22,693 nt of DNA from a virus. The stretch spans positions 1 to 22,693 of the IMG/VR virus record IMGVR_UViG_3300030090_003132; one strand, 5' to 3'. This document shows positions 1,962 to 12,432 of this stretch, one piece after another (positions within the stretch are counted from its first letter, which is position 1; each line of letters begins with the position of its first letter). The notes under the pieces are model-generated. The model was given only the letters and a program-made list of their open reading frames with translations. It was not told the DNA's origin and did no database searches. The position numbers and the translations under genes were made by a program.

Positions 1962-1977
1962 GGAGGAATTCCTTATG
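1960..1977 (+). promoter_or_regulatory. Strong Shine-Dalgarno AAGGAGG before the repeat-protein gene
   Basis: The stop of the upstream gene runs straight into AAGGAGG (1960-1966), the best ribosome binding site in the structural part of the window, 8 nt before ATG 1975. It is followed by AATTCCTT, so AAGG (1960-1963) can pair with CCTT (1971-1974) and might partly mask the site. That stem is only 4 bp, so any regulation is speculative. Confidence 0.55.
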
Positions 1978-3315
1978 GCATCAACCTGGGGTACAAATAC
2001 TTGGGGCGCCAATACATGGCAGTCTGATGAAATAGTTGTATCTATTACTTCACCTGGAACAATATCAGCATTAGGAACACCACAATCATTTAACGTTGAA
2101 GGTTGGGGTAGACAACAATGGAGTAACTCAGGATGGGGAGTTGAGTATTCTGTAGAACCATCTGGTGTATCTATAACTTCTTCACAAGGAACAGCTGAAG
2201 GCGCACCAACAACAGTGGCAGAATTAACAGGAATAAGTTCTAATGTTAATGCAACATTTCCAACTGTTGATCTTGAAACACCAGTAACGTTATCAGGTTT
2301 TGGAATTACATCTTCTTTAGGAAGTGTAGTTTCAGCAAACGAAGAAGGTTGGGGTAGAGCAGAATGGGGCAATGGTGCATGGGGTGTGCAATATTCTGTC
2401 GAGCCATCAGGTTTAGAAATAACTTCTTCTGTTGGAAGTCTTACAACTGCTAACGTAGTAGACATAAATGGTTTAGAAATAACTTCTTCAGTTGGAGAAA
2501 TATCTCCAGCAGATGTAATAGGAATAACAGGTCAATCAATAACTTCTGCTATAGGTGATCTTTCTAATTCTGGAACTCTTGTTGGTTGGGGTAGAAATGG
2601 TTGGGGTGAGGAGCCTTGGGACGCTTCAGTAAATTCACTTGTTCAAATAACAGGTGTTCAAGCAGAGGCAAGTGTTGGTTCTATTACACCAGCAGATGTT
2701 ATGGGATTAACAGGAGTTTCTGCAACAGGAAATGTAGGATCTATTATACCAGCAGATGTTATGGGATTAACTGGTGTTGAGTCTTCTCTTGATGTTGGAA
2801 CTTTATCTATTTTAGAAGGAATTACTTTAAGTGGTCAATCATCAACAGCTAGTGTTGGTTCTGTTACGGTAGCTGATCAAGTAGTCGGTTTAACGGGACA
2901 ATCAGCAACTGTAAGTGTAGGTGATCCTACAATAACATCAAATCCAGTTATAATACCTACAGGTCTTTCTTCAACTGTTTCAGTAGGTTCTATAACACCA
3001 GCTGATGTCATAGGATTAACTGGGGTATCTGCTACAGCATCGGTTGGAGCTACGACAGTTGCAGATTTAGTTTTAGGTATCACTGGAGTTTCAACAACAT
3101 TAAGATTAGGATTACCTACTATTATACCAATTTATGGAAATGTTGACACCGGGTCAAATTCATCTTATAGTGCCGTGTCAACAGGATCAAATAGTAGTTT
3201 TTCTGATGTAAGCACTGGATCTAATACAACACCAGGTTCAGTTTCAACAGGATCAAATAGCACTATTTCTGATGTTGCAACTGGATCAAATACAAGTTAT
3301 AGTGACGCTGCATAG
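1975..3315 (+). CDS. Repeat-built tail appendage/structural protein (Trp-rich, beta-repeat and TGSN modules)
   Basis: 446 aa with at least three repeat types. Near the N-terminus and middle are Trp-rich units of the form GWGRxxWGxxxWG (around nt 2098-2142, 2344-2394 and 2581-2620), after an opening TWGTNTWGANTW. Between and after them are about eight units of roughly 20 residues with the core G(L/I)TGVSATxxVGSITPADVx, which predict a regular beta-solenoid-like rod. The last 56 residues are five 11-residue units STGSNSSxSDV (3145-3312). There is no catalytic motif or TM. Low-complexity repeat proteins of this sort in the appendage region are probably fibre-like or surface proteins. It lies between a small structural protein and the tail-fibre gene with strong SDs on both sides. 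The fold and place in the virion are inferred. Confidence 0.6.
   Translation: MASTWGTNTWGANTWQSDEIVVSITSPGTISALGTPQSFNVEGWGRQQWSNSGWGVEYSVEPSGVSITSSQGTAEGAPTTVAELTGISSNVNATFPTVDLETPVTLSGFGITSSLGSVVSANEEGWGRAEWGNGAWGVQYSVEPSGLEITSSVGSLTTANVVDINGLEITSSVGEISPADVIGITGQSITSAIGDLSNSGTLVGWGRNGWGEEPWDASVNSLVQITGVQAEASVGSITPADVMGLTGVSATGNVGSIIPADVMGLTGVESSLDVGTLSILEGITLSGQSSTASVGSVTVADQVVGLTGQSATVSVGDPTITSNPVIIPTGLSSTVSVGSITPADVIGLTGVSATASVGATTVADLVLGITGVSTTLRLGLPTIIPIYGNVDTGSNSSYSAVSTGSNSSFSDVSTGSNTTPGSVSTGSNSTISDVATGSNTSYSDAA
2098..2620 (+). repeat. Dispersed Trp-rich GWGR repeat units inside the appendage gene
   Basis: Three copies of a GWGRxxWGxxxWG block occur at about 2098-2142, 2344-2394 and 2581-2620. 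The first two are each followed by (E/Q)YSVEPSG and ITSS. The DNA 'ggttggggtaga' is conserved in all three. These are internal coding repeats of the 446-aa protein, and the roughly 240-nt spacing of successive blocks suggests an ancestral duplication. Confidence 0.75.
3145..3312 (+). repeat. Five tandem 33-nt units encoding 11-residue TGSN repeats
   Basis: Each unit encodes (S/D/A)TGSN(S/T)xxxx(V/A). The central residues vary (SSYSA, SSFSD, TTPGS, STISD, TSYSD) and synonymous codons differ between units, so the repeat is old and maintained at protein level and is not a fresh DNA slippage product. It forms the extreme C-terminus of the 446-aa appendage protein. Confidence 0.85.
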
Positions 3316-4489: not shown

Positions 4490-5122
4490 ATGCCAAGAAT
4501 AATCAAACCAGCAAAAGGAAGTTTTACAGTTTCTAGCATAACTGTTGATAGTAGTGGAAGAGTTGTTGCTGCTTCATCAGGAGTAGCGGGTGGAAACAAC
4601 ATGGTTTTAAAAGATACAGCGACAGGTCCTGCTTCCGGAACTTTTACAGCAAATTCTAGCGCAACTAAAATCGTTGCTTATGTTGGAGCTGGAGGTGGAA
4701 ATGGTGGCAGTGGAGATTCTGATAATAATGGAGTTGCTGGCGGTGCCGGTGGTCAAGGAGGATTTGGAGTTTTTTCTTACCCTATCACAGCACCTTACTC
4801 AGTGCCTTTTAGTGTTGGAGCGGCTGGTGGAGCTACTTCAATTGGAAGCCCAGTTGATGCTTCAGCAACTGCAGGTGGTGCTGGATCACCAAGAAATGCA
4901 GGAGGAAATGCTGGACAAGCTGGTAATGCAGGAGCAGCACCAGGAGCAAAAGTATCATATAGCGCCCCTACTGTGACTGCACCAATGAGCACTTTTATGA
5001 GTTTTAATTTTAGCGATAGTAATTTTGTTTTAGGAGGAAATGGAGGACCATTAGGTGGTCCTGGTGCCGCTCCTCCTGGTAAACCAGGTTTTTTACAAAT
5101 ATACGAGGATTTAGGATCATAA
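4490..5122 (+). CDS. Glycine-rich tail-tip / adhesin-like protein
   Basis: 210 aa, SD AGGAGA before ATG. Residues 1-35 contain GSFTVSSITVDSSGRVVAAS, a short attachment-like segment seen in phage appendage proteins. Residues 60-152 and 182-200 are Gly-rich blocks (VAYVGAGGGNGGSGDS, VAGGAGGQGGFGVFSYPI, FSVGAAGGATSIGS), matching the general 'Gly-rich domain' pattern of phage tip proteins. Packed polyglycine-II helices are known for T-even gp38-type adhesins, so a receptor-contacting role is a reasonable inference. Residues 195-200 read PPGKPG, two X-Pro-Gly triplets like collagen, which is notable because a prolyl-4-hydroxylase-like gene lies 1.2 kb downstream. The following gene could be its chaperone. 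Receptor binding is inferred and not shown. Confidence 0.6.
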   Translation: MPRIIKPAKGSFTVSSITVDSSGRVVAASSGVAGGNNMVLKDTATGPASGTFTANSSATKIVAYVGAGGGNGGSGDSDNNGVAGGAGGQGGFGVFSYPITAPYSVPFSVGAAGGATSIGSPVDASATAGGAGSPRNAGGNAGQAGNAGAAPGAKVSYSAPTVTAPMSTFMSFNFSDSNFVLGGNGGPLGGPGAAPPGKPGFLQIYEDLGS

Positions 5123-5125
5123 TAA

Positions 5126-5554
5126 ATGGCTTTTGTAATATTAAGTAATGGGCAATTTTATAGAGTAGCAAAAACTCAATCTGATGTAGATGATATCAAT
5201 ATACCAGAACAAGCTAAAACAGTTGTTGATATTTCTGATGATGATTTTAATTCATTTGTAACATATCAAAAAGAAATTTTTGTTAATGATGGAAATGTTA
5301 CTTTTTCAGATTTTCCTGAAACACATCTACAACATGCAAATGAAGAATTTTTAAAAGAACATTTTAATGAGTTTAAAGACTTAGCTAATTTATATATTGA
5401 AAAAAATTCAGACAGACAATTAGCTATTGCAATAAAAAACTATGTAACTTATCTTGATACTGTAGATACAAGTTCTTTAAGTTATCCAATAAAATGGGAA
5501 AAATATTGTTCTGAAAATTCCATTGTTTTTTTTAATAAATATCAAATAGGCTAA
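5126..5554 (+). CDS. Hypothetical protein, possible tail-fibre assembly chaperone
   Basis: 142 aa, starting 3 nt after the previous stop with no strong SD, so probably coupled to it. It is acidic and soluble, with an N-terminal beta-like part (FVILSNGQFYRV), a helical middle (HANEEFLKEHFNEFKDLANLY) and a C-terminal part ending in WEKYCSENSIVFFNKYQIG. There is no signal peptide, TM or catalytic motif. Position right after the Gly-rich tip gene, size and alpha-helical content resemble tail-fibre assembly proteins, but I see no diagnostic motif. It is the last gene before the promoter of the enzymatic cassette and is more AT- and Lys/Asn-rich than the genes before it, so it could also belong with the cassette region. 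Confidence 0.4.
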   Translation: MAFVILSNGQFYRVAKTQSDVDDINIPEQAKTVVDISDDDFNSFVTYQKEIFVNDGNVTFSDFPETHLQHANEEFLKEHFNEFKDLANLYIEKNSDRQLAIAIKNYVTYLDTVDTSSLSYPIKWEKYCSENSIVFFNKYQIG

Positions 5555-5559
5555 TTTCC

Positions 5560-5590
5560 TTGACACATATTAGGGTATGTAATATATAAT
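5560..5590 (+). promoter_or_regulatory. Exact-consensus sigma70-type promoter driving the cargo cassette
   Basis: TTGACA at 5560-5565 and TATAAT at 5585-5590 are both exact consensus hexamers, separated by 19 nt. TATATA at 5583-5588 offers the alternative of a 17-nt spacer. The site lies in one of the few true gaps of the operon (5555-5599), immediately before the first cassette gene. The expected transcription start is about 5595-5600 and the first ATG is at 5600, so the 5' leader would be 0-5 nt. No purine-rich Shine-Dalgarno is present before that ATG. Confidence 0.65.
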
Positions 5591-5599
5591 ATACATCCT

Positions 5600-6355
5600 A
5601 TGTTTGAGAAAGTTATAGAGTTTATTGCACCTAAAGATTACGTAGTTAAAAAACAAGATTTACCTACTCCAATAAAAATTAATGCGCCAGATTGGTTTAA
5701 AAAACTTAATCATTCTGAAGAACATCGAACAATTAAAGGATGTATGCCTTTTTTAGATACTTTAACTTTTGGTTATTCTTTGTATGTTCCAGTAGATTTA
5801 AAAGTACAACATAATGTTACTGTGAAAGACAGAGAAGGTAAAGAAAAACAAGATAGTCTATTTGGTTGTCCAATAGATAGGTCAGCTTATGATAGTGGTA
5901 TAAATATTAATTATAATGGACCTGATCAATCAATTCATGGTACACATCAAGTAGAGGGTTCTCCATTTATAAATAAAAATAAAAATTTACCTTTTTATAA
6001 AATATTAAATCCTTGGATAATAAAAACACCTCCAGGTTATTCCTGTTTATTTGTGCCACCATTAAATAACGCAGATGATAGATTTAGTATTATTCCAGGA
6101 ATAGTAGATACAGATTCATTTAATTCTGAAATAAATTTTCCCATTATAATAAACGGAGATAAGTATAACGTTTTAGACACCATCATAAAAAAAGGAACTC
6201 CATACGTGCAAATAATACCTTTTAAAAGAGACAATTGGGAGATGAAAATATCTAGTTCAAATATGGCTCGTAATCGTATTTCAAAAGCATTATTTCCTTT
6301 GCGCTTTATTCATAATTACAAAACAGACATATGGAAAAAGAAACACTGCAAGTAA
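5600..6355 (+). CDS. DUF6065-like conserved protein, first gene of the cargo cassette
   Basis: 251 aa. The N-terminus has FEKVIEFIAPKDY followed by PDWFKKL and GCMPFLDTLTFGY. The core contains NPWIIKTPPGYSCLFVPPLN, GIVDTDSFNSEINFP and IIKKGTPYVQIIPFKRDNW. This 'PGYS-lf-pP-N ... pG-VDTD ... KGTPf-q-iPFkR--W' order resembles the DUF6065 family and an unnamed family common in marine phages. The predicted fold is a compact beta-barrel, and no catalytic site is evident. The start at 5600 is preferred although it lacks an SD, because conserved-looking residues begin immediately and the next ATG (5741) would delete them. The last 25 nt overlap the first oxygenase gene. It travels with 2OG oxygenases here, so an accessory or binding role in that pathway is an inference. 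Confidence 0.55.
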   Translation: MFEKVIEFIAPKDYVVKKQDLPTPIKINAPDWFKKLNHSEEHRTIKGCMPFLDTLTFGYSLYVPVDLKVQHNVTVKDREGKEKQDSLFGCPIDRSAYDSGININYNGPDQSIHGTHQVEGSPFINKNKNLPFYKILNPWIIKTPPGYSCLFVPPLNNADDRFSIIPGIVDTDSFNSEINFPIIINGDKYNVLDTIIKKGTPYVQIIPFKRDNWEMKISSSNMARNRISKALFPLRFIHNYKTDIWKKKHCK

Positions 6356-6927
6356 ATACATACGAAGTAGGTCAATACGCTAGAGTGGTTGATGATTTAT
6401 TTCCAGAAAAAACCATGGATGTATTTTATAAAATTTGTCAAACATTGGATTTTGAAGACATGGGAGTTGGGGGTAATCAAAAACCTGAGATTAATAAAGA
6501 AATAAGAAATACTAAAGGCATTGAATTTACTAGATACAGTAAAAAATTAACTCACGTTCATTGGTGTAATTATTTTTCTACTTTAGTAGCACAAGAAATT
6601 TTATATCAATACAAAACAATAGCACCCCATATTCATTTTAAAAAATCAAATATGATTCAAGTTTTAAAATATGAAGAGGGGGGTTTTTACATTCCTCATG
6701 TTGATCATTTTCACAGTATACCTAGAACAATGAGTGTAGTAATATTTGTTAATGATAATTTTGAAGGTGGTGATTTTGAAATGTTTTCGCCAGATAACAA
6801 AGAGTCACAAAAAATAAAACCAAAAAAAGGTAGAACCATTATGTTTCCTTCAAATTTTTTATACCCTCATAAAGCAAATGTTGTGACAAAGGGCACTAGA
6901 TACATGATTGTAATTTGGAATTTATAA
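6331..6927 (+). CDS. 2OG-Fe(II) oxygenase, prolyl-4-hydroxylase type
   Basis: 198 aa. It shows the full active-site set of the 2-oxoglutarate/Fe(II) dioxygenase superfamily on a double-stranded beta-helix: H123-x-D125 in FYIPHVDHFHS, the distal histidine H180 in FLYPHKANVV, and R190 in GTRYMIVIW as the 2OG carboxylate ligand. Between them are MSVVIFVNDNFEGGDFEMF and KKGRTIMFPS, the usual strand pair of P4H-type enzymes. Such enzymes hydroxylate an unactivated C-H bond, often of proline or another side chain, using O2 and 2OG. The substrate here is unknown. The gene overlaps the preceding one by 25 nt and is followed after 1 nt by another oxygenase-like gene. Confidence 0.85.
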   Translation: MEKETLQVNTYEVGQYARVVDDLFPEKTMDVFYKICQTLDFEDMGVGGNQKPEINKEIRNTKGIEFTRYSKKLTHVHWCNYFSTLVAQEILYQYKTIAPHIHFKKSNMIQVLKYEEGGFYIPHVDHFHSIPRTMSVVIFVNDNFEGGDFEMFSPDNKESQKIKPKKGRTIMFPSNFLYPHKANVVTKGTRYMIVIWNL

Positions 6928-6928
6928 T

Positions 6929-7492
6929 ATGAAGATTAGAGATGATTTTAAATATAAAGTAATAAAAAATTTTTTAACTAAAGCAGAAACTTCTTTATTA
7001 AAAGATTACACTCGTTTAACAATTAGACATAATGAACAATATTTTAACTTGGGACAAAGTTCAAGTGTTCCAAATCTTTGTATGTTTTCCGATCCTATTA
7101 TGGAATCATTAATGTTGCAAAAAAGATTACTTGTTCAAAAACAAACTGGTTTAGAATTATTACCAACTTATACTTATTGGAGAGCTTACACTAAATTTTC
7201 TGATTTACCAAAACATAAGGATAGACCCTCTTGCGAAATAAGTGTAACTGTTAACATGGGTTCAGATGGTACTCCTTGGCCTATATTTATGGACAATACT
7301 CCACTTAATTTAAATCCAGGTGATGCAGCAGTTTATTTAGGTTGTGAAGTAGAACATTGGAGAGAGGAATTTCAAGGTGATTGGTGTTCACAAGTTTTTA
7401 TGCATTATGTTGATAAAAATGGTCCTTATAAATCTTTTTTTAAAGATGGAAGAATACATTATGGATTAAAGGAACGATATGAAAACATTTAA
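6929..7492 (+). CDS. 2OG-Fe(II) oxygenase-like protein (HxDRP subfamily)
   Basis: 187 aa. The core reads YTYWRAYTKFSDLPKHKDRP, giving H96-x-D98, then SCEISVTVNMG, a WPIF strand, LNPGDAAVYLGCEVEHWREEF with H143 as candidate distal ligand, and FMHYVDKNGPY. This arrangement (Y.YWR.Y...L..H.DRP..EisvT ... l.pGD...Y.G.e..HwR) is a recognisable marine phage and bacterial 2OG-oxygenase subfamily. The R usually found about 10 residues after the distal His is not at its standard place. R84 or R145 could serve instead, or 2OG binding may differ. There is 1 nt between the previous stop and this ATG, and 14 nt overlap with the next gene. The substrate is unknown. Confidence 0.75.
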   Translation: MKIRDDFKYKVIKNFLTKAETSLLKDYTRLTIRHNEQYFNLGQSSSVPNLCMFSDPIMESLMLQKRLLVQKQTGLELLPTYTYWRAYTKFSDLPKHKDRPSCEISVTVNMGSDGTPWPIFMDNTPLNLNPGDAAVYLGCEVEHWREEFQGDWCSQVFMHYVDKNGPYKSFFKDGRIHYGLKERYENI

Positions 7493-8057
7493 ATGCGAAA
7501 TACCTATTTTAAAAGATAAATTTGAAAAACATAATTTTTATAAAGATGAATTATTATCAATTATAAACAATCAAAAAGAACATTCAGAAAACTACAATAA
7601 TGATAAATTAAAAAAGTGTGATTGGGATGAATCAAAAAATTTTGAAAGACTGTGGGTAAAATTAATTATTGATGATCTTAAAAAACAATTTTTAAAATTT
7701 GCAGATTATTTAGGTTTTAAAAAATGTATAATTTACGAACTTTGGAATCAACAATATGACAATCAAGGTGAACATGGATGGCATGTTCATGGACACAATT
7801 ACACTGGGGTTTATTATTTAAACTTTAGCAAAGATTGTGCTAAAACGAGATTATTAGATCCGTATACTAAAAAATATTTTATGGACATAACAGCTGAGGA
7901 AGGAGACATTGTTATATTTCCATCTAGTATAATTCATACTTCACAAGTACAAAAAACAAATTTTTTAAAAACAATAATATCTTTTAATATTTCATTTGAT
8001 GATATAAAAAAAGATACGTATGAAAGCACAAATAAGGAGGTTAAAATAATTAAATGA
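7479..8057 (+). CDS. Putative 2OG-Fe(II) oxygenase with HxH motif
   Basis: 192 aa. The C-terminal half follows the pattern of the 'putative 2OG-Fe(II) oxygenase' family PF13759: LWNQQYDNQGEHGWHVHGHN, TGVYYLNF, LLDPYTKKYF, EEGDIVIFPSSIIHTSQV, and KTIISFNI. The first metal motif is H102-x-H104 where classical enzymes have H-x-D, and the distal His is H153. Where this family normally has Arg before 'isiSFN' the protein has K164. The N-terminal 80 residues are Lys-rich and helical. It overlaps the previous gene by 14 nt and the next by 4 nt (ATGA). The HxH form is usual for this family as I recall it, so activity is plausible. The substrate is unknown. Confidence 0.7.
   Translation: MKTFKCEIPILKDKFEKHNFYKDELLSIINNQKEHSENYNNDKLKKCDWDESKNFERLWVKLIIDDLKKQFLKFADYLGFKKCIIYELWNQQYDNQGEHGWHVHGHNYTGVYYLNFSKDCAKTRLLDPYTKKYFMDITAEEGDIVIFPSSIIHTSQVQKTNFLKTIISFNISFDDIKKDTYESTNKEVKIIK
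8034..8056 (+). promoter_or_regulatory. Shine-Dalgarno AAGGAGG inside the upstream coding end
   Basis: AAGGAGG at 8034-8040 lies within the last codons of the HxH oxygenase gene, 13 nt before ATG 8054. It is the only strong SD in the cassette. The spacing is long, but the start also overlaps the upstream stop (ATGA), so re-initiation would help. Confidence 0.5.
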
Positions 8058-8257
8058 AAATTATACAGAATAAGGATGGATCAGGAACTATAGTTTTTAA
8101 TGAAAAAGAAAAAAAATTAATAGCTAAAAAAGGTGAGTTTTGTTTACCTGCTAAATTTTTAAGAGATTTTTCTAATGTGTTAGTTAAATTAGCTGTCGAT
8201 ATTAATGATAGATTACCAGATGATTTACGAAACAAACAAACTAATCTTAATAAATAA
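8054..8257 (+). CDS. Small conserved hypothetical protein in the cassette
   Basis: 67 aa, Lys/Asp-rich and soluble. It begins MKIIQNKDGSGTIVFNEKE, a short beta hairpin, and continues with a predicted helix (FLRDFSNVLVKLAVDINDRL) and a charged tail. Comparable small proteins starting 'MK.vQNKDGS..I.F...E' recur in uncultured marine phages as I recall them, without a known role. There is no TM or metal motif. It overlaps the oxygenase before it by 4 nt and is followed after 5 nt by the carbamoyltransferase N-domain gene, so it is co-expressed with both. It could be a small adaptor or regulator of the enzymes, but nothing in the sequence shows this. Confidence 0.55.
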   Translation: MKIIQNKDGSGTIVFNEKEKKLIAKKGEFCLPAKFLRDFSNVLVKLAVDINDRLPDDLRNKQTNLNK

Positions 8258-8262
8258 TTTTT

Positions 8263-9186
8263 ATGAAAATACTTGGAGTTAATATCTCCCATCATCCCTC
8301 TATTTGTGTTTATGAGGGAGGTAAAATAATATCTTTTTATAATGAAGAAAGATTTGTTCTTAGTAAAGGATATAGTTTAGACGAAACAGAAATACTACAA
8401 TCTATTTTGCAAAAAATTAATTTTAAACCAGATATGGTTTGTTATTCTTCTTATGGAAGAAATTTTAAATATTCTGATACTAGTGATGAAAAAATAATAA
8501 AACTTTTACAAGATCAATTAAAAAATCCTCCTTATTTTTTTAATGAAAAAGAACATCATTTATATCATGCAGTAGCAGCATTTTATTTTTCTTCTTTTAA
8601 AGAGGCAATAGCCATTATTGTAGATGGAGGAGGTTCATGTAACTTTGAAATTCCTTACCGAGAAATAGAGTCAATTTATTTTATTAATAATAAAAGTATT
8701 AACCCCATATATAAACACAGTACATGTTTTAAAACTGACCGATCATTAAATTTTCCAACAAACACATGGAATGTTCAATCTTATAAAAAAGGATTTTTAA
8801 ATAAATTTTCAAATGAATCTAGAGGAGGAATAGATTTTTTAAATGCTTGTGAAGCAATAGGTTTTCCAGCTAGAGGAATGAATGCAGGAAAAGTTATGGG
8901 TCTATCTTCTTATGCATACAGTAAAAAAAAATATGATTTAGATTATTCAAAAGTAGAAATTGCAAAAAATGTTCAAGAAAAAACTTTTAAAGAAACATGT
9001 ATGTTAATAGATGGTGTAAAAAATAAAAGTAACAATATTGTTTTATCAGGTGGCTATTTTCTTAATTGTTCAAATAATTTTAAATACGTAAAAAAATACC
9101 CTAATATAAATTTTTTCGTTGATCCAATTCCACATGATGGTGGAACAGCAATAGGTGCAACAGTGTATTATGATAATTATAGATAA
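8263..9186 (+). CDS. O-carbamoyltransferase, N-terminal Kae1-like domain (NodU/CmcH/TobZ family), split gene
   Basis: 307 aa. This is the actin/Kae1-like half of a carbamoyltransferase, which in the family transfers a carbamoyl group from carbamoyl-adenylate to a hydroxyl of a sugar, antibiotic or nucleobase. Motifs in order: LGVNISHHPSICVYEGG and NEERFVLSKG at the N-terminus; H98-xxx-H102 in EHHLYHAVAAFY; D121 in IIVDGGG; GKVMGLSSYAY; IVLSGGYFLNCSNNFKY; and D292 in IPHDGGTAIGAT. H98, H102, D121 and D292 match the metal ligands known in TobZ. Only the C-terminal domain is missing, and it is supplied by the next gene in another frame. The stop at 9184-9186 overlaps that gene by 17 nt. Starts 5 nt after the small ORF. 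Confidence 0.85.
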   Translation: MKILGVNISHHPSICVYEGGKIISFYNEERFVLSKGYSLDETEILQSILQKINFKPDMVCYSSYGRNFKYSDTSDEKIIKLLQDQLKNPPYFFNEKEHHLYHAVAAFYFSSFKEAIAIIVDGGGSCNFEIPYREIESIYFINNKSINPIYKHSTCFKTDRSLNFPTNTWNVQSYKKGFLNKFSNESRGGIDFLNACEAIGFPARGMNAGKVMGLSSYAYSKKKYDLDYSKVEIAKNVQEKTFKETCMLIDGVKNKSNNIVLSGGYFLNCSNNFKYVKKYPNINFFVDPIPHDGGTAIGATVYYDNYR

Positions 9187-9730
9187 TAAAGAAAAAGCAG
9201 TTTTAACATTATTAGAACAAAAACCTTTGGTAATTTTTCAAAACGAAAGTGAATGGGGGCCAAGAGCTCTTGGTAATAGATCTATATTGTTTGATCCAAG
9301 AAATAAAGATGCAAAAAAAATAGTTAATAAATTTAAAAAACGAGAATGGTGGAGACCTTTAGCAGGAACAATATTATTAGAATATGCTCATGATTATTTT
9401 GATTTAGCAACTTTAAAAGAAAGTCCTTATATGTCTTTTGCAGTAGAAGCAAAAGAAAAAGCTATAAAGGAAGTGCCATCGATTGTTCATGTAGATAATA
9501 CCTGTAGAATACAAACATTAACTAAAAAAGATAATAAAAATTACTATGATTTAATAAAATGTTTTTTTAAAAAAACTAACGTTCCAATGTTATTAAATAC
9601 ATCATTTAATTTAGCAGGATTTCCAATTGTAGAAAACGAAGAGTTTTTAAAGTTTACAGTAGAAAATTCTGAATTTAAATATGTTTACAAACCTAAATCT
9701 ATAAAAAATGAAGACTTTAATAATAGATAA
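9170..9730 (+). CDS. O-carbamoyltransferase, C-terminal domain, split gene
   Basis: 186 aa from ATG 9170 (a GTG at 9155 would add 5 residues). This is the C-terminal carbamoyltransferase domain. It has SEWGPRALGNRSILFDPR, then KKREWWRPLAGTIL, SPYMSFAV, IVHVDNTCRIQTL and VPMLLNTSFNLAGFPIVENE, all in the order found in full-length NodU/CmcH/TobZ proteins, where this YrdC-related domain makes or binds carbamoyl-adenylate. In those proteins both halves are one chain of roughly 500-600 aa. Here they are separate frames with a 17-nt overlap, and together they lack only the variable linker. A +1 frame change would fuse them, or they may assemble as two subunits. It overlaps the next gene by 23 nt. 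Confidence 0.85.
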   Translation: MIIIDNKEKAVLTLLEQKPLVIFQNESEWGPRALGNRSILFDPRNKDAKKIVNKFKKREWWRPLAGTILLEYAHDYFDLATLKESPYMSFAVEAKEKAIKEVPSIVHVDNTCRIQTLTKKDNKNYYDLIKCFFKKTNVPMLLNTSFNLAGFPIVENEEFLKFTVENSEFKYVYKPKSIKNEDFNNR

Positions 9731-10223
9731 TTTTTTACCTGACCCTAATAGTGTAAGACAGTTTGGATTAGGTTTATCCTATCGAAGAAGAAATAATGAT
9801 GAATACTGGGAGGGTCAAAGAAGTGAAAAAGTAAGTTTATACGATAAAAACTTAGAGGATAAAATATGTAGAAATATTATTAAAAGTTACTTTAATATAA
9901 ATAATTTTAATTATAATGCTGATTTATATTTTCATAAAACCATGAAAAACGATTTAAACGATCCACAATGGATTAATGATAAAATACATACTGATAAAGG
10001 TATGATCGCTGCCTTAGTATATTTAACACCTGATGCTCCAATAAATTCAGGCACGCAAACATATAAAAATCAAAAACCAGATATTGTCATGGGTAATTGT
10101 TTTAATAGATTAGTTTGTTATCCATGCGATGTGCCACACTCAGCGATGACTTATTTTGGTGGTGAAAATAATTGTAGACTAGTGTTGTTATTTTGGTTAT
10201 TTAATTTAGAAATTTTGAAATAA
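9708..10223 (+). CDS. DUF6445-like 2OG-Fe(II) oxygenase-type protein
   Basis: 171 aa. The N-terminus reads TLIIDNFLPDPNSVRQFGLG, the usual opening of this family, then a YWEGQRSEKV segment. The core shows H94-x-D96 (KIHTDKG), AALVYLTPDAPINSGTQTY, a CFNRLVCYP strand, H144 in VPHSAMTYFGG and R157 in NCRLVLLFW. This matches the fold and metal/2OG ligands of the DUF6445 branch of the dioxygenase superfamily. It is the last gene of the cassette, overlaps the carbamoyltransferase C-domain gene by 23 nt, and is followed by a 43-nt gap before the nozzle gene. Hydroxylation of an unknown substrate is the expected activity, perhaps making the OH group that is then carbamoylated, which is inference. Confidence 0.7.
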   Translation: MKTLIIDNFLPDPNSVRQFGLGLSYRRRNNDEYWEGQRSEKVSLYDKNLEDKICRNIIKSYFNINNFNYNADLYFHKTMKNDLNDPQWINDKIHTDKGMIAALVYLTPDAPINSGTQTYKNQKPDIVMGNCFNRLVCYPCDVPHSAMTYFGGENNCRLVLLFWLFNLEILK

Positions 10224-10266: not shown

Positions 10267-12432
10267 ATGCTACAAAAAATAGGTTTTGCGCCCGGAATCA
10301 ATAAACAAATATCTGCAACAGGGGCTGAAGGTCAATGGGTAGATTGTGATAATGTTAGATTTAGATATGGCACACCTGAAAAAATAGGTGGTTGGAAACA
10401 ATTAGGAACAGATGATCTTACAGGGGCTGTTAGAGGTCTACATCACTATGTTAATAGTTTAGGTAGAAAATATGCTATTATTGGAACTAATAGAATTTTG
10501 TATGCTTTTTCTGGTGGTGTATTCTATGACATACATCCAATTAAATCTACAACAACGCTTACAAGTGCATTTACCACGACTAACGGATCACCAACTGTTA
10601 CAATAACTTTCTCGGGTTCACATGGAATATTAAAGAATGATATTATTTTATTAGATAATTTTACAACCATAACAGGTTCTAATTTTGGTTCATCTGATTT
10701 TGATGATAAAAAATTTATGGTAACATCTGTGCCAACATCATCAACTCTTACAATTACAATGCCATCAAACGAGTCAGGATCTGGTGCAACAACATCAGGT
10801 GGTATCCGAGTGCAACATTATTATACTGTGGGACCAGCGGTGCAGGCAAAAGGTTTTGGCTGGGGTTTAGGATCTTGGGGTGGTGAAGATGTTGGAGCAG
10901 TAACCACTACTTTAAATGGTGCAATTAATGACTCTGTAACAAGCCTTACACTAACTGATGCTTCTCAGTTTCCAAGTTCAGGAACTAATTTTATTATCAT
11001 AGGGTCTGAAGAAATTTCTTATACTGGTGTTAGTGGTAACACTCTTACAGGTTTAACAAGAGGAGTTGCAGGAACCACGGCAGCATCTCATAGTGATGGA
11101 GCTACTGTTACAAACTCAACTGATTTTATTGCATGGGGTGAAGCTGCATCAGGTGACTTAGTTATTGAACCTGGTATGTGGTCACTAGATAATTTTGGTG
11201 ATAAAGCAATTTGTCTTATTCATGATGGTGCTGTTTTTGAATGGGACTCTTCTTTATCAAACGCTACATCAACAAGAGCAACTATTATATCAGGTGCACC
11301 AACAGCATCACGTCACATGTTAGTATCCACACCGGATAGACACTTAGTATTTTTTGGAACAGAAACAACTATTGGAGATACGTCAACACAAGATGATATG
11401 TTCATAAGATTTTCTGACCAAGAAGATATAAATACATATACACCTACAGCAACTAATACTGCTGGTACACAAAGACTGGCCGACGGATCACAGATCAGAG
11501 GAGCGATCAGAGGTCGTGATGCAATCTATGTTTGGACCGACACTGCTTTATTTACACAACGTTTTGTTGGTCAACCTTTTACATTTGCTTTTTCTCAAGT
11601 AGGAACTAACTGTGGACTTGTTGGACAAAATGCTTGTGTAGAAGTTGATGGTTCTGCATATTGGATGTCGGAAAATGGTTTTTTTAGATATGCAGGTAAA
11701 TTAGAATCATTACCATGTTTGGTAGAGGATTTTGTATTTGATGATATAAATTTAGAATCTGGAAATCAAATGGTGTCAGCAGGTTTAAATAATTTGTTTG
11801 GTGAAGTTATGTGGTTTTATCCAACTTCAAGTTCCTCTGTTGTAAATAGACAAGTCACTTATAATTATTTTGATTCATCACCACAAAGACCAGTTTGGAC
11901 AAATGGGACTTTATCTCGAACAATGTGGAGAGATTCTGCTGTATTTGGTTTACCACATGCAACAGAATATGATGCAGATACAGATACTTCTTTTGATGTT
12001 GTGGGCAACACTGATGGTAAAACAACGTATTATGAACACGAGACAGGCACTGATCAAAATAAAAATGGAACTATAACTGCAATAACTTCAAACATTTCAT
12101 CTGGTGATTTTGATATTACACAAAGGCAAGCAGGTGTTGCAACCCCTCTTCCTAGAGGTGATGGAGAATTTATAATGAAGATAAGAAGATTTGTTCCAGA
12201 TTTTATATCACAAACAGGAGCAACTAGAGTAACTTTAGAATTAAGAAATTATCCTAATAACTCACAAGCTAGCTCATCATTAGGACCTTTTGATGTAACT
12301 AGTTCAACAACAAAAGTAGACACGCGTGCAAGAGCAAGAGCTATTGCGTTAAAAATAGAAAATACAACAACTAGTCAAACCTGGAAGTTAGGAACTTTTA
12401 GATTAGATATACAACCAGATGGACGTAGATAA
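10267..12432 (+). CDS. Tail nozzle / packaged-DNA stabilisation protein (P22 gp10-like)
   Basis: 721 aa. The start (LQKIGFAPGINKQ, EGQWVDCDNVRFRYGTPEKIGGW) is the hallmark of a large podovirus tail-hub family related to P22 gp10, which plugs the channel beneath the adaptor and retains DNA. The body is all-beta, with short repeated blade-like segments (AIIGTNRILYAFSGG, AICLIHDGAVFEWDS, AIYVWTDTALFTQRF). Two insertions stand out: residues 96-182, a beta-domain like the C-terminal half of the 87-584 protein, and residues 213-282, a module with SLTLTDASQFPSSG and GSEEISYTGV that is widespread in phage proteins. SD-like AAAGG lies 6 nt before ATG. The family match is good, but the exact structural name (nozzle or stabiliser) is inferred. 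Confidence 0.75.
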   Translation: MLQKIGFAPGINKQISATGAEGQWVDCDNVRFRYGTPEKIGGWKQLGTDDLTGAVRGLHHYVNSLGRKYAIIGTNRILYAFSGGVFYDIHPIKSTTTLTSAFTTTNGSPTVTITFSGSHGILKNDIILLDNFTTITGSNFGSSDFDDKKFMVTSVPTSSTLTITMPSNESGSGATTSGGIRVQHYYTVGPAVQAKGFGWGLGSWGGEDVGAVTTTLNGAINDSVTSLTLTDASQFPSSGTNFIIIGSEEISYTGVSGNTLTGLTRGVAGTTAASHSDGATVTNSTDFIAWGEAASGDLVIEPGMWSLDNFGDKAICLIHDGAVFEWDSSLSNATSTRATIISGAPTASRHMLVSTPDRHLVFFGTETTIGDTSTQDDMFIRFSDQEDINTYTPTATNTAGTQRLADGSQIRGAIRGRDAIYVWTDTALFTQRFVGQPFTFAFSQVGTNCGLVGQNACVEVDGSAYWMSENGFFRYAGKLESLPCLVEDFVFDDINLESGNQMVSAGLNNLFGEVMWFYPTSSSSVVNRQVTYNYFDSSPQRPVWTNGTLSRTMWRDSAVFGLPHATEYDADTDTSFDVVGNTDGKTTYYEHETGTDQNKNGTITAITSNISSGDFDITQRQAGVATPLPRGDGEFIMKIRRFVPDFISQTGATRVTLELRNYPNNSQASSSLGPFDVTSSTTKVDTRARARAIALKIENTTTSQTWKLGTFRLDIQPDGRR

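Follow-up and report, generated by a model that had tools for sequence, protein, structure and literature searches.

Putative virion-modification genes and a split carbamoyltransferase in the tail module of a probable HTVC023P-type podovirus

We analyzed a 22,693-nucleotide stretch of viral DNA (hereafter, the window), which covers positions 1 to 22,693 of the 23,505-base IMG/VR record IMGVR_UViG_3300030090_003132. The analysis centers on the gene cluster at positions 5560 to 10223, which carries four putative 2-oxoglutarate (2OG)-Fe(II) oxygenase genes and a carbamoyltransferase encoded by two genes. A preliminary description had read this cluster as one cassette, whose enzymes act in sequence on a single target. 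This unity did not survive comparison with relatives, where the carbamoyltransferase pair proves to be a separable 1,454-bp insertion. Instead, we lean, with about even confidence, toward reading the region as a patchwork of cargo genes for modifying the virion, set in the late tail module and consisting of core oxygenases, a tail-tip gene set, and an optional two-subunit carbamoyltransferase.

As first described, the cluster comprises eight open reading frames (ORFs) on the same (forward) strand between the tail-tip genes and a nozzle-like gene, and their families were confirmed. The mostly overlapping ORFs encode a DUF6065-like protein (5600-6355), three oxygenases (6331-6927, 6929-7492, and 7479-8057), a small conserved protein (SM; 8054-8257), carbamoyltransferase subunits N (8263-9186) and C (9155-9730), and a DUF6445 protein (9708-10223). 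The cluster is AT-rich, with a GC content of 25 to 28%, compared to roughly 33 to 41% in the neighboring kilobases. The dedicated promoter that had been proposed for it finds no backing, as 39 promoter-like matches were counted against 42.4 ± 6.9 in shuffled sequences, which is no excess.

The four oxygenase-type genes hold up, judging by their alignments, as each family keeps a conserved triad. In the representative alignments, the 6331, 6929, and 9708 genes show the HxD...H facial triad. The first of these encodes a prolyl-hydroxylase-type enzyme (PF13640, 2OG-FeII_Oxy_3; E = 2e-19) with weak matches to P3H1 and EglN/PHD2; its residues H123, D125, H180, and R190 are conserved at 85% or more across 40 representatives. 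The 2OG-FeII_Oxy_5-type protein encoded at 7479-8057 has HxH...H instead (H102, H104, and H153, conserved at 85% or more), though it scores above the PF13759 cutoff (E = 5e-9). In the DUF6445 protein (PF20043; E = 8e-9), H94, D96, H144, and R157 form an HxD...H...R pattern that is invariant in 23 rows.

The 6929-7492 protein, annotated as "ferrochelatase" in relatives (phrog_2954; E = 2e-47), matches no Pfam family at E values up to 1, and its residues H96, D98, H143, and R145 are invariant in 32 alignment rows. Neither its alignment nor that of the DUF6445 family gave a match in a sequence-profile search of solved structures, and therefore fold comparison and hhalign were used. AlphaFold2 (AF2) models were made for two proteins, this one and the DUF6065-like protein. 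The model of the 6929-7492 protein (predicted local distance difference test score [pLDDT], 91) has a double-stranded beta-helix fold, and its top matches are SnoN, PHD2, and a bacterial prolyl 4-hydroxylase, with Z scores of about 15 to 16 (15.9 over 172 residues). In hhalign, the DUF6445 and "ferrochelatase" families align with their triads in register, though at a probability of only 71. A ferrochelatase identity for the 6929-7492 protein was ruled out, given its predicted 2OG oxygenase fold and the lack of a ferrochelatase domain. Two current names thus look wrong, namely "ferrochelatase" for the 6929-7492 protein and "minor coat protein" (phrog_1644) for the DUF6445 family. Across marine phages, the "ferrochelatase" label of phrog_2954 and phrog_3531 likewise appears to denote a 2OG oxygenase, and published iron and heme readings depend on that name.

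The carbamoyltransferase is of the NodU/CmcH type and is divided over two genes, as the preliminary description had noted. Subunit N is Kae1-like and comprises the metal and acceptor domain (PF02543, Carbam_trans_N; E = 1.5e-12; phrog_1601). Subunit C is YrdC-like (PF16861, Carbam_trans_C; E = 1e-51) and likely starts at the ATG at position 9170, which gives a coding region of 9170-9730 and an overlap of 17 nt with the N gene. The metal-ligand positions of subunit N (H98, H102, D121, and D292) are conserved at 85% or more, and the H98-x3-H102 motif and its 19-residue spacing to D121 match H133, H137, and D156 of GdmN. Subunit C aligns with TobZ, GdmN, and NovN.

Since independent contigs carry the same break, a sequencing or assembly frameshift was ruled out. 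Production of a single protein by programmed +1 frameshifting would fit the constant +1 difference between the N and C frames in the overlapping type of the pair, yet several observations make it very improbable. At all 35 distinct junctions of this type, the N gene stops 14 to 26 nt past a +1-frame ATG that opens the C gene; an ATG occurs in 43% of comparable windows inside the N gene. The junction ATG is preserved despite changes in the residues of the overlap, and nine combinations of final sense codon and stop occur, so that a slippery site is absent. In addition, the C gene precedes the N gene in S-RIM44, Sf-FP1, S-SCSM1, and two contigs (L155 and L157), and an oxygenase gene sits between the halves in two others (L182 and L183), which points to two proteins rather than a frameshift. 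The split is thus genuine, and the halves are two separate subunits.

Purifying selection acts on the two halves in almost every pair compared: the ratio of nonsynonymous to synonymous substitution rates (dN/dS) is 0.14 to 0.36 for subunit N (0.83 in one barely diverged pair) and 0.03 to 0.13 for subunit C. In a tree of the C domain, the overlapping type makes up a single 41-row clade that includes the window (support, 99/97). Accounting for the split forms as a whole takes about four changes, of which well-supported branches force at least two. Among the best 80 bacterial and archaeal matches, which make up the cellular sample, 74 of the 75 complete ORFs are single chains of 507 amino acids or more. 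Contigs L139 (5476-9198) and L140/L199 hold a 496-amino-acid single-chain carbamoyltransferase together with a split pair in one cassette, and the two lie far apart on the C-domain tree. A single-chain enzyme also accompanies glycine-rich tail-tip-like genes in L225 (PBPT01000082.1), which is binned as Neomarinimicrobiota and looks like a phage.

At the DNA level, a megablast search with the window found no match to named phages. The nozzle/stabilization-like structural gene directly downstream of the cluster (10267-12432, forward strand; phrog_3287, E = 5e-101) encodes a protein with 46 to 48% identity to those of phage 023Pt_psg01 (47%) and the pelagiphages HTVC027P and HTVC023P, and the layout of the window agrees with that of these phages, including a terminal reverse-strand helicase. 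Based on this identity and layout, we assign the window to a fragment of an HTVC023P-type (SAR11 phage-like) podovirus, the host being inferred from its relatives. Loci of relatives were drawn by the nozzle gene and not by the cassette; the 80 best matches represent close relatives, and the 59 loci with at least 4 kb upstream of the nozzle gene served as the counting base.

The search of related phages for the same gene set gave a divided answer. Oxygenase-like genes, in 2 to 11 copies, lie upstream of the nozzle gene in 56 of the 59 loci, so that their colocation is borne out in most relatives. A carbamoyltransferase, fused or split, was found in only five (L038, L056, L060, L086, and L088). 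Moreover, three relatives with 88 to 98% DNA identity to the window (L023, L104, and L105) have 25 bp in place of its 1,454 extra bases at 8255-9708. This insert contains exactly the two carbamoyltransferase genes, and the relatives without it keep the four oxygenase genes, the DUF6065-like gene, and SM. The pair occupies three sites among the genomes, all in the structural region. Besides the site seen in the window, it is found downstream of the nozzle gene beside a glycosyltransferase pair in some genomes and, elsewhere, about 10 kb away near the o305 gene, which was taken for a capsid gene by size only. With this, carbamoylation and hydroxylation come apart as functions, even if both could still converge on one target.

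The DUF6065-like gene belongs to a third component. Pfam DUF6065 matches it only below threshold (E = 0.03), but phrog_7084 spans its full length (E = 9e-41). Its protein is predicted to adopt a dUTPase-type fold: the AF2 model (pLDDT, 82.8) superimposes on dUTPases with a Z score of 10.5 and a root mean square deviation of 2.2 over 118 residues (Foldseek E = 3e-4). The family conserves GIVDTD, which is motif III-like, and GTPYvQ, which is motif IV-like; motifs II (RS) and V (Gly-rich) are unrecognizable. A distant DUF6065-like protein adjoins a thymidylate synthase gene in Halorubrum tailed phage 7 (L019, gene 38), a neighbor in keeping with the predicted fold, and such proteins occur in many haloviruses.

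In the window, the gene follows a fast-evolving glycine-rich tail-tip/adhesin-like gene (GLY; 4490-5122, forward strand; dN/dS, 0.31 to 0.34) and a tail-fibre-assembly-like gene on the same strand (TFA; 5126-5554; phrog_136, E = 0.008; Caudo_TAP subthreshold at E = 0.1). The fourth gene of the set is SM, which encodes 67 amino acids and has 102 homologous ORFs. The DUF6065-like gene is present in 8 of the 59 loci, and GLY, TFA, and SM are present in all 8 (Fisher P values of 7e-8 to 4e-9, 7e-8 for GLY, which are optimistic because the loci are kin to each other). The DUF6065-like gene thus travels with the tail tip and not with the carbamoyltransferase. TFA shows a dN/dS of 0.68 to 1.08 between close relatives, while its neighbors are constrained. 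Farther upstream, 1975-3315 encodes a repeat-rich protein in which LTGVSATxSVG and STGSNSSYSDV units recur, with internal DNA repeats seen against relatives.

From these observations, we infer activities, coupling, and targets as follows. The core oxygenases of the 2OG-Fe(II) type, above all the prolyl-hydroxylase-type and "ferrochelatase"-type enzymes, would probably hydroxylate tail proteins encoded by neighboring genes, and virion-protein hydroxylation by these enzymes is our best single guess for the region. The GLY-TFA-DUF6065-SM set is inherited together. Subunit C would be expected to use carbamoyl phosphate and ATP to form carbamoyl-AMP. Subunit N, which retains its metal site, would then carbamoylate an acceptor hydroxyl. 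The two are separate proteins, encoded by genes with a 17-nt overlap and probably translationally coupled. The most likely acceptor would be a hydroxyl group carried by a virion protein or by a virion or surface sugar, with sugar nearly as likely as protein. The earlier argument that a location in the structural operon speaks for the virion or a surface, rather than DNA, as the target gains weight from the recurrence of this location in other phages. Oxygenase clusters adjoin tail genes in HTVC023P, HTVC033P, the myovirus Mosig EXVC030M, and the cyanophage S-CAM8; in the last, an unrelated cyanomyovirus, tail-fibre genes flank a carbamoyltransferase, a "ferrochelatase," and several 2OG oxygenases.

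Several points weigh against a patchwork of virion-modification genes. Gene neighborhood is weak evidence of target, as late-operon cargo sites also gather unrelated genes, and the four families, though members of one superfamily, may have different targets. The oxygenase counts come from iterative profile assignments, in which cross-hits within the superfamily are possible. Cyanophage split carbamoyltransferases adjoin thyX and not tail genes. Glycosyltransferases are present in some pair-carrying relatives and absent from the window region, and acceptors may differ between phages.

Published work treats such oxygenases as auxiliary metabolic genes (PMC9599517, PMC3037559, and PMC12753301), which would act on host metabolites or on the 2OG and iron balance. 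We consider this possible for the window, though doubtful, as the genes lie between tail-tip and nozzle genes in the 56 loci counted above and, in other phages, next to tail fibres, and the "ferrochelatase" that backs the iron/heme idea is a predicted oxygenase. The retention of several oxygenases in the tail module of nearly all sampled close relatives points to a virion job rather than to metabolism. The single pathway originally proposed, in which the carbamoyltransferase caps a hydroxyl installed by the oxygenases, seems unlikely. It draws on the clustering of the genes in one operon, which is likewise seen in S-CAM8, and on the pair often being embedded within the oxygenase cluster. However, L023, L104, and L105 have the oxygenases without the pair, the pair is rare (5 of 59 loci, against 56 for the oxygenases), and in several genomes it sits about 10 kb off or beside glycosyltransferases. 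Because oxygenases are near-universal in the sampled relatives, co-occurrence carries little information. Still more improbable is the specific version in which the two-subunit enzyme O-carbamoylates hydroxylated tail-protein residues, and both modifications tune the receptor-binding surface.

Sugar carbamoylation is a known job of the carbamoyltransferase family. It is a tentative possibility that the pair acts on a virion glycan or host surface polysaccharide made with a GT1-GT2 glycosyltransferase pair and sometimes a sulfotransferase. In several relatives, the glycosyltransferase pair directly follows the carbamoyltransferase pair, with a sulfotransferase nearby in some, and MetaGPA reported carbamoyltransferases beside group 1 glycosyltransferases on unmodified contigs (PMC8670742). 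In the window and many other carriers, no glycosyltransferase lies near the pair, which is not decisive, as the window phage is incomplete. Phage DNA bases, also named earlier as candidates, come out disfavored, and a pair that modifies hydroxylated bases, as in 5-hydroxymethylcytosine (5hmC), is improbable. A 5hmC carbamoyltransferase of the same fold is known (PMC8670742), some HTVC023P-type clades carry thymidylate synthase and thymidine hypermodification genes (PMC9599517), and the nearest full-length subunit N relatives in named phages adjoin thyX. Against this, 20 records, among them carriers of 41.9, 49.6, 50.0, and 58.9 kb, lack both thymidylate synthase (PF00303) and ThyX (PF02511), with the window phage itself incomplete. 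At two of the three positions reported as diagnostic, G40 and R42 in the window correspond to G421 and R423 of TobZ in our alignment and are canonical, not of the 5hmC type. The 5hmC enzyme forms a very long outlying branch, and the pair is located in structural regions.

The oxygenase genes are near-universal among the sampled members of a very abundant phage group, and their probable role in the virion could be probed with phages in culture. With an oxygenase fold predicted for the "ferrochelatase," a heme-based reading in the literature falls away. As a naturally bipartite form of an enzyme whose characterized members are single chains, the split carbamoyltransferase would help in studying how the intermediate travels from one active site to the other. 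Protein O-carbamoylation of tail residues, if true, would to our knowledge be a new posttranslational modification, tuning the receptor-binding surface in a phage group that ranks among the most abundant in the ocean.

The two-domain chemistry of the carbamoyltransferases TobZ and GdmN is known (PMC9633730). With these class III O-carbamoyltransferases of the NodU/CmcH type (TobZ, GdmN, and NovN), the window pair has in common both domains, the GPRALGNRS core, and the H/H/D/D metal-ligand positions. The characterized members consist of one polypeptide and the window enzyme of two, and we file it as a split variant. The "Nol-like" carbamoyltransferases of cyanophages (phrog_1601 and phrog_20469; S-CAM8, P-SSM2, S-RIM44, and S-SCSM1) are also marine, some being split and some lying in tail-fibre regions. 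However, those of S-CAM8 and P-SSM2 are single chains, the split ones are reversed and near thyX, and all fall outside the 41-member clade of the window. In S-RIM44 (L017, 9288-11543), Sf-FP1 (L018, 8044-10296), and S-SCSM1 (L014, 4540-8790), the reversed genes directly follow a thymidylate synthase gene (thyX in S-RIM44), which makes them a candidate nucleotide- or DNA-modifying version, unlike those in tail regions. Cyanophage carbamoyltransferases have been described as pyrimidine-pathway enzymes (PMC9146016 and PMC10436341); the S-MS29 protein matches the NodU/CmcH-type C domain here, so that this reading is doubtful for S-MS29.

The 5hmC carbamoyltransferase (MetaGPA, eLife 2021, PMC8670742) shares its superfamily and phage setting with the window pair. 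It differs in being a single chain linked to thymidylate synthase and in two of the three diagnostic positions. The 2OG oxygenase/"ferrochelatase" clusters of HTVC023P-type phages (mSystems 2022, PMC9599517) concern the same phage group, genes, and colocation as the window; that study reads the partner as a ferrochelatase, whereas here it is a predicted oxygenase, and a text search of the paper found no carbamoyltransferase. Gene sets of this kind are already present in annotated genomes, and none of the literature searched was found to treat oxygenases and carbamoyltransferase as one system. In the N6-threonylcarbamoyladenosine (t6A) pair, TsaC/YrdC and TsaD/Kae1 show the same twofold division of labor across separate proteins as is predicted for subunits C and N. 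The acceptor and the close-sequence family differ from those of the window pair.

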